A stretch of DNA of 5,458 nt from Porticoccus sp. (GTDB taxonomy: Bacteria; Pseudomonadota; Gammaproteobacteria; Pseudomonadales; Porticoccaceae), in the NCBI GenBank assembly GCA_011049795.1, contig DRHD01000088.1, forward strand, positions 1 to 5,458, written 5' to 3'. A program made the translations under genes and the position numbers. The notes beneath the pieces were generated by a model. It did not search any database, was not told the origin of the DNA, and was given only the letters and a program-made list of their open reading frames with translations. Numbering within the stretch: position 1 is the stretch's first letter; each line of letters opens with the position of its first letter. Below are positions 1 through 5,458 of the stretch, one piece after another.

Positions 1-1
1 C

Positions 2-2101
2 AATAAGGCTCTCAGCCATACCCTTGCCGTTGGGGCGGCGTTGCTCTCGTGGGCAGGGAGTATGATGGTCTTCTGGCGGGCGTTAAATACTGAACACTTT
101 GGCGCAAATCCTTTTGTTTCCTCTATTAATTGGTTGCCTACTGGAGAGACATGGTTCCAAATAGGAGTACAAATTGATCCTCTATCGGCTGTGACGCTCT
201 TTTTTGTAGCCTGGACCGTCCTGATGATTTTTCTTTATAGCGTTGGATACCATAACTTCGGGCAGCAAAAAGGCGATCATGATCGACCTGGCCTCCCCCC
301 ACGTGGTGCAATCGTAACCGATGAGGACGGTCACTCACATAAAGTTCCCTCTGTCGAGCCGATGTACTCTCGCTTCTTTGCATTCATCGGCTTGTTTGCC
401 TTCGGTATGTACGCTCTGGTGGTTTCGGACAATCTGCTCACCCTGTTCGTTGGTTGGGAGATCATGGGGTTGTGTTCGTATTTGTTGATCGGCTTTTGGT
501 ATGGCAAACTTTCGGCACGTGCAGCGATGATTAAGGCGTTTTTGACCACACGTGTAGGCGATGTGTTCATGCTGTTGGGTATCGTTTATCTGTACTCGGC
601 GACAAAAACACTCAATTACCGTGAAATTTTATTCAACGAAGAAGTATTGCACGATTTGGCTACAACCGATTCTGGTTTCCTGGGGCTGTCGGCAGCCGGT
701 TTGATCGGTTTACTGCTGATCATCGGGGCAGTAGGTAAATCTGCTCAGTTCCCACTGCACGTTTGGTTACCCGACGCCATGGAAGGTCCCACCCCGGTTT
801 CAGCCATGATCCACGCTGCCACAATGGTGTCGGCGGGGGTCTATATGGTTATCCGTGTTTTCCCGCTTCTCTCGGCTGGCATGGAGCACGGGAATCTGAC
901 TCCTCCGATGATGGTCATGGCCATTATTGGTGCGGGAACAGCCTTGTTTGCAGCGACTATAGCGGTAGCTCAAAACGATATCAAGCGTGTCTTGGCGTAC
1001 TCAACTATCTCACAATTGGGGTACATGTTCGCGGCCTTGGGAATCGGTGCATACGTTGCGGCTGCTTTTCACTTGATCACCCACGCCTTTTTCAAAGCTT
1101 TGCTGTTTCTTGGGTCTGGTTCCGTCATCCATGGTATGGAGCACGGCGTATTACATACTGGCGACCATGTTGACCCACAGGATATGTTCAATATGGGTGG
1201 ACTCCGCGGGAAGATGCCGGTCACTTTTTGGACTTTCTTGATAGGGGGTTTCGCTTTATCAGGTTTCCCCTTGATCACGGCGGGTTTCTGGTCAAAAGAT
1301 GAAATCCTGGCTGATGCCTTTGGGAACGGGTATTGGGCGGTGCTTGCCACTCTGGCTCTTTCGGCGTTATTTACGGCATTCTACACGATGCGCCAGATCA
1401 CGTTGACCTTTTTAGGTGAACCCCGCACCGAGGCGGCCAACCATGCCCAGGAGACTCCCTGGACGATGACGGTCCCCCTGGTGGTCCTGGCTGTCTTTGC
1501 TGTAGCCATCGGGTGGGTTGGCATCCCTGAACATTTCCCCGGCCTGGGCGGTATTGTACCCAATTGGTTGCACGAATTCGTCGGCGGCACTTTGCTCGAA
1601 CATCCAGAGGCGGTGGCATTCAATATCGTTCCATTGCTCACATCGTTGGTGGTGGCCCTGGGAGGGTTAGCGCTGGGTTGGAGGGTATACCGTAATGTTC
1701 AGGAGGGTTCTGGCGACCCGGTAGAAAAAGCCCTTGGCCCTGTTTACCAGGTGCTCAAGAACAAGTACTACTTCGACGAATTGTATGACAAATTGTTGGT
1801 TAAGCCATCGTATTGGCTCGCGGAGACCTTTACTTCTTTGTGGATGGATAGGGTGGTGATTGATGGCATCTTGCATGCGTTTTCACAACTGGCTTCACGT
1901 GTGGGTGATTTTCTCCGCAATTATATTGACAAGCCGATTGTGAATGGTTTTGGTGATTTTGTCGGGGAGGGTGTCAATCGTTTTGGGCATTTATTACGGG
2001 TGATTCAAACTGGGCGGGTGCAACAGTACATGATACTCGCTCTGGTCAGTATAGCAGCTTTTAGTGCCTTTATCTATTATCTGTTGGTCTTTACGCCTTA
2101 G
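2..2101 (+). CDS. nuoL: NADH-quinone oxidoreductase subunit L (complex I antiporter-like subunit), 5'-partial
   Basis: This is the distal proton-pumping subunit of the complex I membrane arm (ND5/NuoL family). The frame is open to the left edge, so the true start and about 35-40 residues including TM1 are missing; the TTG at 41 is internal. 699 residues are visible, against about 613 for the whole E. coli protein. Family residues are present: Glu of GWEIMGLCSYLLIG (codon 458-460), TM7 Lys of GAVGKSAQFP (737-739), His of SAMIHAATMV (812-814), Lys of THAFFKALLFL (1094-1096) and Lys of GFWSKDEIL (1295-1297). So the proton channel looks intact. Two regions are longer than usual: a hydrophilic loop of 38 residues (251-364) before YSRFF, where E. 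coli has about 6, and the C-terminal lateral helix region, which has about 70 residues between the VKP motif and the last membrane helix, against about 38 in E. coli. The second fits an enlarged complex with two NuoM, which follow directly downstream. The E. coli comparisons are from memory. Confidence 0.97.
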   Translation, partial: NKALSHTLAVGAALLSWAGSMMVFWRALNTEHFGANPFVSSINWLPTGETWFQIGVQIDPLSAVTLFFVAWTVLMIFLYSVGYHNFGQQKGDHDRPGLPPRGAIVTDEDGHSHKVPSVEPMYSRFFAFIGLFAFGMYALVVSDNLLTLFVGWEIMGLCSYLLIGFWYGKLSARAAMIKAFLTTRVGDVFMLLGIVYLYSATKTLNYREILFNEEVLHDLATTDSGFLGLSAAGLIGLLLIIGAVGKSAQFPLHVWLPDAMEGPTPVSAMIHAATMVSAGVYMVIRVFPLLSAGMEHGNLTPPMMVMAIIGAGTALFAATIAVAQNDIKRVLAYSTISQLGYMFAALGIGAYVAAAFHLITHAFFKALLFLGSGSVIHGMEHGVLHTGDHVDPQDMFNMGGLRGKMPVTFWTFLIGGFALSGFPLITAGFWSKDEILADAFGNGYWAVLATLALSALFTAFYTMRQITLTFLGEPRTEAANHAQETPWTMTVPLVVLAVFAVAIGWVGIPEHFPGLGGIVPNWLHEFVGGTLLEHPEAVAFNIVPLLTSLVVALGGLALGWRVYRNVQEGSGDPVEKALGPVYQVLKNKYYFDELYDKLLVKPSYWLAETFTSLWMDRVVIDGILHAFSQLASRVGDFLRNYIDKPIVNGFGDFVGEGVNRFGHLLRVIQTGRVQQYMILALVSIAAFSAFIYYLLVFTP
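1844..2005 (+). other. Tandem 27-residue repeat in the NuoL lateral helix (HL) region
   Basis: Two adjacent 81-base units (1844-1924 and 1925-2005) encode segments that align without gaps. Unit 1 begins MDRVVIDG and unit 2 begins IDKPIVNG; both have R-x-G at units 19-21 and end in L-L-R or F-L-R. I count 6 identities in 27, plus conservative pairs (R/K, V/I, I/V, D/N, F/L). The DNA units are not obviously alike, so any duplication is old. The length roughly equals the excess of this region over a normal NuoL. The interpretation as a duplicated piece of amphipathic helix is inference. Confidence 0.6.
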
Positions 2102-2117
2102 ACCCGCACGGATCATT

Positions 2118-2122
2118 AGGAG
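2118..2122 (+). promoter_or_regulatory. Ribosome binding site of first nuoM
   Basis: AGGAG lies six bases before the ATG at 2129, inside the 27-base gap after the nuoL stop codon. It supports this start. No promoter or terminator fits in the gap. Confidence 0.8.
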
Positions 2123-2128
2123 CGAAGG

Positions 2129-3676
2129 ATGGATTTTATAGCGAGTCACTTGCTCACGCTCATCTTATTTTCACCTGTTGTGGCGGCAGTTGTCTTATTG
2201 ATTTTGCCGCGCCAACAGAAAGATCTTATCCGGTGGACGGCTTTTATTCTCAGTTTTGTACCTTTAGGATTCTCATTAGCGTTGTGGTTTGGATTTGAGG
2301 CTGGGCGTCCTGGATTTCAGTATGAAGAGATGTATACCTGGTACCAGGCTATCAATTCATCGTATCACCTGGGTGTGGATGGCATATCGCTAACTATGGT
2401 CTTGTTGACCACTTTGCTGACCCCATTAGCTATTCTGGCTTCTTTCGGTATAAAAAAGCACCTCAAAGCGTATATGATCCTTTTCTTGTTACTGGAAATG
2501 GGTGCGCTAGGGGTGTTCCTTTCCCTGGATTTGTTGCTTTTCTTTGTATTTTGGGAGTTTGGACTCGTTCCTATGTATTTCTTGATCAGCCAATGGGGCA
2601 GTGAAAAGGGTGAGCGTGAAATATGGGGGGGGAGAAAAATACCGGCGCGCACCTATGCATCTTTCAAGTTTCTGATCTACACCATGGCTGGTTCACTTGG
2701 CTTGTTATTGGCGATCCAGATGATCGGTGTAGTAGCTGGGACTTTTGACCTGACGTTATTGTTCGACCGCTGGCCTGCGATGGATCGGTCTTTGTTCGGT
2801 TTACCTATCGGCACGGTTAAGGCTATTGCATTCTGGGCTTTCACAATCGCCTTTGCAATCAAGATTCCAGTATGGCCCTTTCACACCTGGCTGCCGGATG
2901 CACACACAGAAGCACCTACCGCTGGCTCGATGATCCTGGCAGGTGTGCTGCTCAAGTTGGGAGCATATGGTTTCCTCCGCTTGGTATTGCCTCTCTACCC
3001 TGTGGAATCTCGTTACTATGCTGGGGCGCTGGCTTTTCTGGCTGTCATGGCGATAATCTTTGGCGCTCTTGCCTCCTTTGGGCAAGATGACTTCAAGCGC
3101 CTGGTGGCTTACTCATCGGTCAACCATATGGGTTTTGTAGTGCTGGGGATCGCGGCCGCAGCATTTGCCAGTGGAACGGAAAATGCTACGATTGCTTTGA
3201 ATGGTGCTGTATTGCAGATGTTCAATCATGGCCTATCGGCAGCCGGCATGTTCTTCCTGGTCGGCGTGATTTATGAAAGGACCCATACACGTAACTTGAA
3301 TGATTTTGGGGGGTTGTTCTCCCTGATGCCTGTTTACGGCGGTATTTTAATCTTTACCTCGATGGCTTCCCTGGGGTTGCCGGGTCTCAACGGTTTCGTC
3401 TCAGAATTCCTGGTCGTCAGGGGTTCCTGGCCTATTTTCAGCGTGTACACGTCTGTAGCAATGATCGGTTTATTCTTTACGGGCGCTTACATACTTAAGG
3501 GGATAAAGAAGGTTCTACACGGGCCACTTAACGAGCACTGGGTTGGTCACTTGAGCGATATCAACGCTCGTGAGATTTTCGTGATTGTTCCATTGATGAT
3601 CCTGATGTTGTGGATTGGTGTGTGGCCTGCGTGGATATTGGACGTGATTAACCGGGCTGTTGAAATGCTCTACTAA
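2129..3676 (+). CDS. nuoM: NADH-quinone oxidoreductase subunit M, first copy (canonical)
   Basis: This is an antiporter-like subunit (ND4/NuoM family) of the complex I membrane arm, which couples quinone reduction to proton translocation. It has 515 residues, close to the usual length of about 500-510, and is hydrophobic throughout, consistent with the family's 14 membrane helices. All expected proton-path residues are visible: Glu143 in VFWEFGLVPMYFLI (TM5), Lys245 in AIKIPVWPFHTWLPDAH (TM7), Lys276 in GVLLKLGAYGFLR (TM8), His333 in NHMGF and Glu426 in LNGFVSEF (TM12). It should therefore be a working pump. A short charged stretch after SQWGSEKGE (around residues 155-175) is longer than in E. 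coli and contains a G8 tract (2625-2632), across which the frame stays open. The ATG has a good ribosome binding site. The next gene is a second, diverged nuoM; the two are too different to be a recent duplication. Confidence 0.97.
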   Translation: MDFIASHLLTLILFSPVVAAVVLLILPRQQKDLIRWTAFILSFVPLGFSLALWFGFEAGRPGFQYEEMYTWYQAINSSYHLGVDGISLTMVLLTTLLTPLAILASFGIKKHLKAYMILFLLLEMGALGVFLSLDLLLFFVFWEFGLVPMYFLISQWGSEKGEREIWGGRKIPARTYASFKFLIYTMAGSLGLLLAIQMIGVVAGTFDLTLLFDRWPAMDRSLFGLPIGTVKAIAFWAFTIAFAIKIPVWPFHTWLPDAHTEAPTAGSMILAGVLLKLGAYGFLRLVLPLYPVESRYYAGALAFLAVMAIIFGALASFGQDDFKRLVAYSSVNHMGFVVLGIAAAAFASGTENATIALNGAVLQMFNHGLSAAGMFFLVGVIYERTHTRNLNDFGGLFSLMPVYGGILIFTSMASLGLPGLNGFVSEFLVVRGSWPIFSVYTSVAMIGLFFTGAYILKGIKKVLHGPLNEHWVGHLSDINAREIFVIVPLMILMLWIGVWPAWILDVINRAVEMLY

Positions 3677-3692
3677 TGATTAATTTGTGTCC

Positions 3693-3699
3693 GAGGTGA
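3693..3699 (+). promoter_or_regulatory. Ribosome binding site of second nuoM
   Basis: GAGGTGA is a long match to the 16S rRNA 3' end. The GAGG core ends six bases before the ATG at 3703. It sits in the 26-base gap after the first nuoM and fixes the start. Confidence 0.8.
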
Positions 3700-3702
3700 G
3701 CA

Positions 3703-5175
3703 ATGCAATTTCCAATATTGAGCGTCATTGTCTTAACACCGATAGTGGCTGGTATGCTCATTTTTCTTATTCCGGGTGAGCGCAAGAATGAGGTGCGAGT
3801 CACGGCACTAGCAGCAGCTACTTTTGCCTTGCTCCTTTCGATTTGGGCATATTTGTCATATGATATCTCTGCTGGTGGTTACCAGTTTGTCGAGAAATAC
3901 ACATGGTTACCATCGCTTGGTATCTCATATCAAGTAGGTTTGGATGGAATAAACGCTCCGCTATTGCTGTTAACGGGCGTGGTTATGTTTACCGGTGTTT
4001 TGGTCTCGTGGGGTATTGAGGATCGGCCGCGCGAGTTCTTTGCTTTTCTATTTGTCCTGGCAACAGGTGTGTTTGGGGTTTTCGTATCTTTGGACCTGTT
4101 CATGTTGCTTTTCTTCTACGAAATTGCTGTCTTCCCGATGTATTTGCTGATCTCGATATGGGGCTGGAAAGTGACACGCGAATACGCTGCCATGAAACTT
4201 ACCTTATACTTGTTTATTGGATCGGTGGTAGCAATTATTGGGGCACTGGCGATGTATTTCGCTTCTGGAATGGGTACATTTGATATGCTTGCGCTAGAAC
4301 AGGCGAACTTCTCGGTGGCATTCCAGAGGTTTTGGTTTCCGTTCGTATTTTTCGGTTTCGCTGTGCTGGGAGGTATTTTCCCCTTCCACAACTGGAGTCC
4401 GGATGGACATGTGGCCGCACCAACTGCGGTTTCGATGTTCCACGCGGGTGTCTTGATGAAATTAGGTGCCTTCGCTGCTCTGAGGGTTGGAATTATGCTC
4501 TTGCCCGAAGGTGCCAGGTTTCACATGAGATGGATTGTCCTGCTCGCCTTGGTGAACGTAGTATATGGAGCGTTTATCGCCATGGTGCAGAGCGACTTCA
4601 AGTATGTTATCGGTTTTTCCTCCGTCTCGCATATGGGTTTGGTAATGATGGGCTTTGCCACGCTTAGCAGGAAGGGGCTCATCGGTTCTGGGATGCAGAT
4701 GTTTTCCCACGGCGTGATGACAGCTCTCTTCTTTGCTGTGGTTGGCATGGTGTACGATCGGGCTCACACGCGAGATATACCCAAGCTGGGAGGTTTCATA
4801 AGGGTTATGCCGTTGGTGGCGATTGCCTTTATTATCGGCGGTTTAGTCTCGATGGGCATGCCGGGCTTCTCCGGGTTTGTGGCAGAGTTCCCCATTTTTA
4901 TGGGTGTTTGGGAGTCTTATCCGTGGGTTGCCATTGTAGCTGTCATTTCTATTGTGATCACCGCGTCTTATGTCATGCGGATTGTCGGGCGAGTCTTCTT
5001 CGGTAAAATGCCTGAGGAGTTTGTAGACCACGTCCACGATGTTACCGTGCTAGACAAGGTGGCTCTGGTTTTGCTCTCAGTAATTTTAATTGGCGTGGGT
5101 GTCTATCCATCGGTGATGGTGCCGCTGGTGGAGTCGGGCGTTAATAGTATATTACGCCTGTTGGGAGGTGCATAA
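3703..5175 (+). CDS. nuoM: NADH-quinone oxidoreductase subunit M, second diverged copy (NuoM2)
   Basis: This is a second NuoM-family membrane protein of 490 residues, full length with good start and stop signals. It keeps Glu140 in FFYEIAVFPMYLLI (TM5), Lys253 in GVLMKLGAFAALR (TM8), His310 in SHMGLVMMG, His336 in MFSHGVM and Glu395 in FSGFVAEF (TM12). The TM7 lysine, which is Lys245 in the neighbouring copy, is replaced: AIKIPVWPFHTW aligns with AVLGGIFPFHNW, putting Leu222 at the lysine position. No other Lys or His lies within that helix. It also has His247 in SMFHAGVL, where the first copy has Leu in SMILAGVL; NuoL has a His at the corresponding place. The motif after TM7 is SPDGH instead of LPDAH. 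It probably forms an additional membrane-arm module between the usual subunits. Whether it pumps protons without the TM7 lysine cannot be told from sequence. The region 5014-5095 recurs inverted at the window end. Confidence 0.95.
   Translation: MQFPILSVIVLTPIVAGMLIFLIPGERKNEVRVTALAAATFALLLSIWAYLSYDISAGGYQFVEKYTWLPSLGISYQVGLDGINAPLLLLTGVVMFTGVLVSWGIEDRPREFFAFLFVLATGVFGVFVSLDLFMLLFFYEIAVFPMYLLISIWGWKVTREYAAMKLTLYLFIGSVVAIIGALAMYFASGMGTFDMLALEQANFSVAFQRFWFPFVFFGFAVLGGIFPFHNWSPDGHVAAPTAVSMFHAGVLMKLGAFAALRVGIMLLPEGARFHMRWIVLLALVNVVYGAFIAMVQSDFKYVIGFSSVSHMGLVMMGFATLSRKGLIGSGMQMFSHGVMTALFFAVVGMVYDRAHTRDIPKLGGFIRVMPLVAIAFIIGGLVSMGMPGFSGFVAEFPIFMGVWESYPWVAIVAVISIVITASYVMRIVGRVFFGKMPEEFVDHVHDVTVLDKVALVLLSVILIGVGVYPSVMVPLVESGVNSILRLLGGA
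5014..5095 (+). repeat. Left (native) arm of an 82-bp perfect inverted repeat
   Basis: This stretch lies within the 3' part of the second nuoM, starts GAGGAGTTTGTAGACCACG and encodes the end of the protein in frame, so it is the original copy. Its reverse complement is found at 5377-5458 without a mismatch, with 281 bases between the arms. Matching stops at 5096. Confidence 0.97.
5163..5170 (+). promoter_or_regulatory. Ribosome binding site of nuoN, inside the end of the second nuoM
   Basis: GGGAGGTG encodes part of the last residues of NuoM2 and lies seven bases (from the GGAGG core) before the GTG at 5176. It decides the unusual GTG start of nuoN and suggests translational coupling, because the GTG follows the nuoM2 TAA with no gap. 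Confidence 0.85.
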
Positions 5176-5430
5176 GTGTTTCCAGGTAGCTTTGAACCCT
5201 CAATGTTTTTAGCGATTTTGCCAGAGATATTGCTGTTTATTTTGGCTCTCATTATTTTAGCCTTAGATTTAATAATTACCGAGGAACGACGAGCCAATCT
5301 GGGTTGGCTAACTGCTGGTGGATTGGCGTTTATTATTGGTATTAGTCTGGCAGTGGCTCGACCGGGTATAGAACCCCGCCAATTAAAATTACTGAGAGCA
5401 AAACCAGAGCCACCTTGTCTAGCACGGTAA
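5176..5430 (+). CDS. nuoN: NADH-quinone oxidoreductase subunit N, N-terminal fragment with an artefactual tail
   Basis: NuoN (ND2) is the antiporter-like subunit closest to the quinone module and normally has about 480 residues. Only the N-terminus is here. Residues 1 to about 67 contain the first membrane helix (LAILPEILLFILALIILALD), a charged loop (EERRANLGW) and a second helix ending LAVARPGIEP. This is typical of NuoN, and its position after nuoM is the usual one. The start is GTG directly after the nuoM2 TAA, backed by a strong ribosome binding site; the next ATG (5203) would remove the beginning of the protein. From 5377 the DNA is a reverse copy of nuoM2, so residues 68-84 (RQLKLL to CLAR) are antisense nuoM2 translation and the stop at 5428-5430 is not the true end. 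I consider the gene intact in the organism and cut here by a chimeric junction. A real rearrangement is possible but less likely. Confidence 0.85.
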   Translation: MFPGSFEPSMFLAILPEILLFILALIILALDLIITEERRANLGWLTAGGLAFIIGISLAVARPGIEPRQLKLLRAKPEPPCLAR

Positions 5431-5458
5431 CATCGTGGACGTGGTCTACAAACTCCTC
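5377..5458 (-). repeat. Right (inverted) arm of the 82-bp repeat, probable chimeric sequence
   Basis: All 82 bases up to the end of the window are the reverse complement of 5014-5095 in the second nuoM. The junction falls at the CGCC at 5377-5380 within nuoN, and those bases may be shared microhomology. The copy interrupts nuoN, is perfectly conserved and reaches the very last base. These three facts favour an amplification or assembly chimera over a biological repeat. Confidence 0.95.

Follow-up and report, generated by a model that had tools for sequence, protein, structure and literature searches.

The gene order nuoL-M1-M2-N, with an additional NuoM, is given in the excerpted text of PMC7117926 (citing Chadwick 2018) as the layout of the 2M complex I of Chloroflexi. 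A further mark of this operon is a second NuoM that groups in the NuoM2 clade of Anaerolinea thermophila. A different body of work describes inverted joins that arise while DNA is being amplified or sequenced. In the sections of Lasken and Stockwell (2007) drawn on here (PMC1855051), 406 of 475 chimeras formed by multiple displacement amplification (MDA) were inverted and 337 of these 406 joined segments less than 10 kb apart, with at least 2 complementary bases at 76.8% of the chimera junctions (range 2–21 nt). The inverted class is explained there by a displaced 3′ end that pairs over a few complementary bases with another displaced strand close by and primes synthesis anew. The passages used from a later study place the peak distance between chimeric segments at approximately 250–300 nt and the peak overlap at 6 nt, with most overlaps measuring 5–8 nt (PMC4595205), and inverted chimeras of phi29 MDA are also treated in the available part of a further source (PMC13265396). 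Such reads are not confined to MDA: the parts of two other papers considered here report inverted reads from nanopore ligation libraries prepared without MDA (PMC13141652) and, for long reads in general, fold-backs (PMC12870357).

The window, which is the whole stretch of 5,458 nucleotides analyzed here, carries nuoL, nuoM, nuoM2 and the start of nuoN in this order, as determined from the open reading frames and family profile searches and, for nuoN, by comparison with a relative's protein (P0129, see below). The order is thus the same as in the 2M complex I operon of the Chloroflexi, from which the window differs in that its nuoN is broken, by what we consider an artefact. The arrangement nuoL-M1-M2-N is already known for Chloroflexi, and the window holds no novel biology in this respect. 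The start of nuoL is lost at the left end of the contig (the best NCBIfam match starts at profile position 28). The nuoM2 gene (3703–5175, forward strand) is intact and encodes a NuoM family protein of 490 residues (TIGR01972, 5.7e-135), of which P0009 is the window's own database entry. Among the 87 relatives collected, of which 80 loci were kept, the nearest belong to Anaerolineae and other Chloroflexota, with a best protein identity of 85%. A search of the family of genome G001 gave matches in 32 of its 38 genomes, in which long alignments reached no more than approximately 75% identity at the DNA level.

Near the end of the window we identified a pair of inverted arms. Direct comparison shows that positions 5377–5458 are the exact reverse complement of positions 5014–5095 (82 of 82 bases), as had been claimed from the letters alone. 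The left arm (5014–5095, forward strand) represents the genuine copy; it spans codon 438 to the first base of codon 465 of nuoM2 and lies inside the intact reading frame of this gene, where residues 438–465 are identical to those of P0010, the closest relative found for nuoM2. The spacer of 281 bases (5096–5376, forward strand) contains the end of nuoM2 and the start of nuoN in their normal order, and the innermost flanking pair (5376 versus 5096) is mismatched, so that the arms end there. The right arm (5377–5458) is a copy of nuoM2 in antisense, on the reverse strand with respect to the gene. Whether the contig ends at 5458 had been named as a point to check, and it does: for P0009, which is 100% identical to the translation of the window's nuoM2, the listed longest contig measures 5458 bases. 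The window therefore takes up the entire contig, and the right arm stops where the contig stops.

The inverted pair is far above chance expectation. The longest other exact inverted match within positions 1–5376 is 12 nt, and shuffling the mononucleotides of the window 100 times gave maxima of no more than 18 nt (mean 12.4). An inverted-repeat search that extends across mismatches returned the arm pair as 95 nt at 95%.

The consequence of the right arm for nuoN is an open reading frame of 84 residues (5176–5430, forward strand) with a GTG start and a TAA stop, in which residues 1–68 correspond to NuoN and residues 69–84 are chimeric. The sequence-only reading had held that the right arm replaces the expected nuoN sequence and had proposed a search for a full-length nuoN in related genomes. 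Both points are borne out by P0129, the closest NuoN found, which is intact at 484 residues and comes from a near-identical organism: it matches residues 2–68 without a mismatch (a methionine takes the place of the GTG start of the window), after which 0 of 16 window residues agree. Past residue 68, P0129 continues with Leu-Val-Phe-Gly-Gly-Met, whereas the window reads Gln-Leu-Lys and then on to its stop codon. GGM occurs within residues 61–95 in 99 of 104 NuoN matches, the other five having GGA, GDM, GGV, GGT and SGM. The genuine part of the gene had earlier been set at residues 1–67; the assignment to the N-terminus of NuoN stands, but the match runs through residue 68. P0129 and P0010 share a longest-contig figure of 17,609 bases, which suggests that the two are encoded next to each other on one contig. 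The genome itself most likely carries nuoN uninterrupted, as an ordinary gene of approximately 484 residues.

It had further been predicted that an annotation pipeline would report a gene of 84 residues with a stop codon. The open reading frame exists as described, but a pipeline-annotated product did not come to light: the 84-residue product is absent from the 8 proteins matched by its own search (53–69% identity), in which it could still sit inside a 90% cluster. The truncated frame has no family match in NCBIfam or Pfam, and a 30-base pattern spanning the junction gave 0 matches in viral_contigs, which are not the likely source.

In related loci, nuoM2 is generally followed by a full-length frame. 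After setting aside the distant loci L067, L069, L070, L072 and L074–L080 (33–45% identity) from the 80 relative loci, 69 were examined, and 59 of these have an open reading frame of at least 470 residues downstream of nuoM2. Among the other 10, the available sequence stops within the frame in 8, L047 ends before nuoN, and L016 has a frame that is closed but short. In this last locus (L016:4270-5115), which comes from a metagenome-assembled genome, nuoN is closed at 281 residues by a frame change, and since the remainder reads on in another frame, it represents a sequencing error or a pseudogene.

Of the 80 loci, 62 gave a match to the truncated frame of the window. In 61 of these the alignment extends no further than query residue 70, and in the remaining one it reaches residue 74. 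Measured from where the nuoM2 match ends, nuoN starts between -20 and +60 bases in 61 loci and at +117 in L072. The 18 loci that lack a match comprise 10 of the distant ones set aside above, L047, and seven others (L018, L019, L021, L025, L044, L049 and L068) that nevertheless have an open frame after nuoM2, of 478–495 residues in six and of 169 residues in L044, where the sequence runs out. Exact inverted repeats of at least 25 nt were found in none of 92 related loci (not all independent; L081 and L002, for instance, come from one genome), with the exception of one self-palindrome in L067, perfect over 26 nt (2991–3016). An apparent palindrome of 82 bp in L008 (11389–11470) was rejected, as it is a run of 82 N.

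At the junction itself, the bases CGCC (5377–5380) could belong to either side, so that at most 4 exact bases are shared; when one mismatch is allowed, 6 of 7 bases agree. The window reads CGC-CAA (Arg-Gln) where P0129 has Arg68-Leu69. Codon 68 (CGC) also opens the arm, which leaves an uncertainty of up to approximately 4 bases (5377–5380) in the position of the breakpoint. The full 4 bases would be shared provided that Arg-Leu is encoded as CGC-CTN in the intact allele, P0129 having been compared as protein only.

Taken together, we are highly confident that the terminal inverted copy is an artefact, in which a read of a chimeric molecule, or an equivalent fold-back during library preparation, added 82 bases at the end of the contig. 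The case for an artefact at the contig end is strong, and the earlier suggestion of a probable chimera that breaks nuoN has gained support from the exactness of the copy, its position at the contig end and the intact, near-identical NuoN of the relative. The molecular event, and with it any method of amplification, is inferred rather than observed. During synthesis of nuoN in the forward direction, the growing strand would have been displaced near base 5376–5380, and its 3′ end could then have re-primed on the same-sense strand at approximately 5092–5095 in nuoM2, through a few complementary bases. Extension backward from this point would yield antisense nuoM2, and a read of the resulting molecule, or the equivalent library fold-back, would have lengthened the contig by 82 bases to its present end.

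A reading in which the join is real, with nuoN disrupted in the strain by template switching in the living cell or by an inversion that is polymorphic, appears highly improbable. The join is clean and template switching with few shared bases occurs in cells as well, both of which are in keeping with a real event, and even the closest relative found differs from the window (98% identity to P0010 in nuoM2, with 9 of 490 residues different), which leaves room for a rearrangement private to this genome. Such an event would, however, break a core subunit of complex I next to the genes for three further subunits, whose frames are open within the window, the copy is undiverged and stops at the contig end, and no comparable repeat is present in the 92 loci, while the near-identical NuoN of P0129 is intact. 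We likewise hold it to be very improbable that an inverted duplication private to the strain inactivates nuoN in a fraction of the population of this Chloroflexota lineage, for example through a recent template switch in vivo or through a reversible inversion by which complex I is silenced. A real join would mean that a proton-pumping subunit has been knocked out in nature, a striking case; nothing here favours such a reading.

We give the least credence to a misjoin made by the assembler without any chimeric molecule, in which a k-mer common to both would have led from nuoN into nuoM2 on the reverse strand. The join does lie near a contig end, where errors in the assembly graph are common, but the exact shared bases number 4 at most and the usual assembler k is approximately 21 or more. 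With sharing so far below k, at least one read should carry the junction unless it was forced in gap closing, and as 4 bases are too few for a k-mer join, we consider a chimeric molecule or read more probable than an assembler error alone. A link between the arm length of 82 bases and the k-1 of an assembler run with k = 83 was also considered. A regulatory hairpin, a terminator and a terminal inverted repeat were rejected as well: both arms are situated within coding sequence and are separated by 281 bases, the right one takes the place of NuoN residues, and the structure is absent from the 92 loci.

The inverted copy is therefore almost certainly a terminal fold-back chimera and not a real biological feature. 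Its importance lies mainly in data quality, as the contig, annotated as it stands, would give the false impression of a truncated NuoN in this lineage. A perfect inverted copy that reaches the last base of a contig is a simple sign of such an error and one that can be scanned for.

Compared with the inverted chimeras of phi29 MDA, the window likewise joins two nearby inverted segments with few or no shared bases. Its second segment is inverted, over 82 of 82 bases, and the distance of 281–285 nt falls within the limit of 10 kb below which most inverted chimeras lie and within the peak at approximately 250–300 nt. The sharing of at most 4 bases is inside the range of 2–21 nt given in the sections used of PMC1855051, but lower than the bulk of 5–8 nt, with its peak at 6 nt, in those used of PMC4595205. 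MDA is thus a plausible source of this particular junction. The window equally resembles fold-back reads formed without MDA, in that it too holds an inverted copy of its own locus, and because inverted and fold-back reads also arise in this way, either route may have been the source. In the relevant passage of PMC13141652, inverted repeats are counted only when each fragment exceeds 500 bp, whereas the right arm of the window measures 82 bases and the spacer 281.
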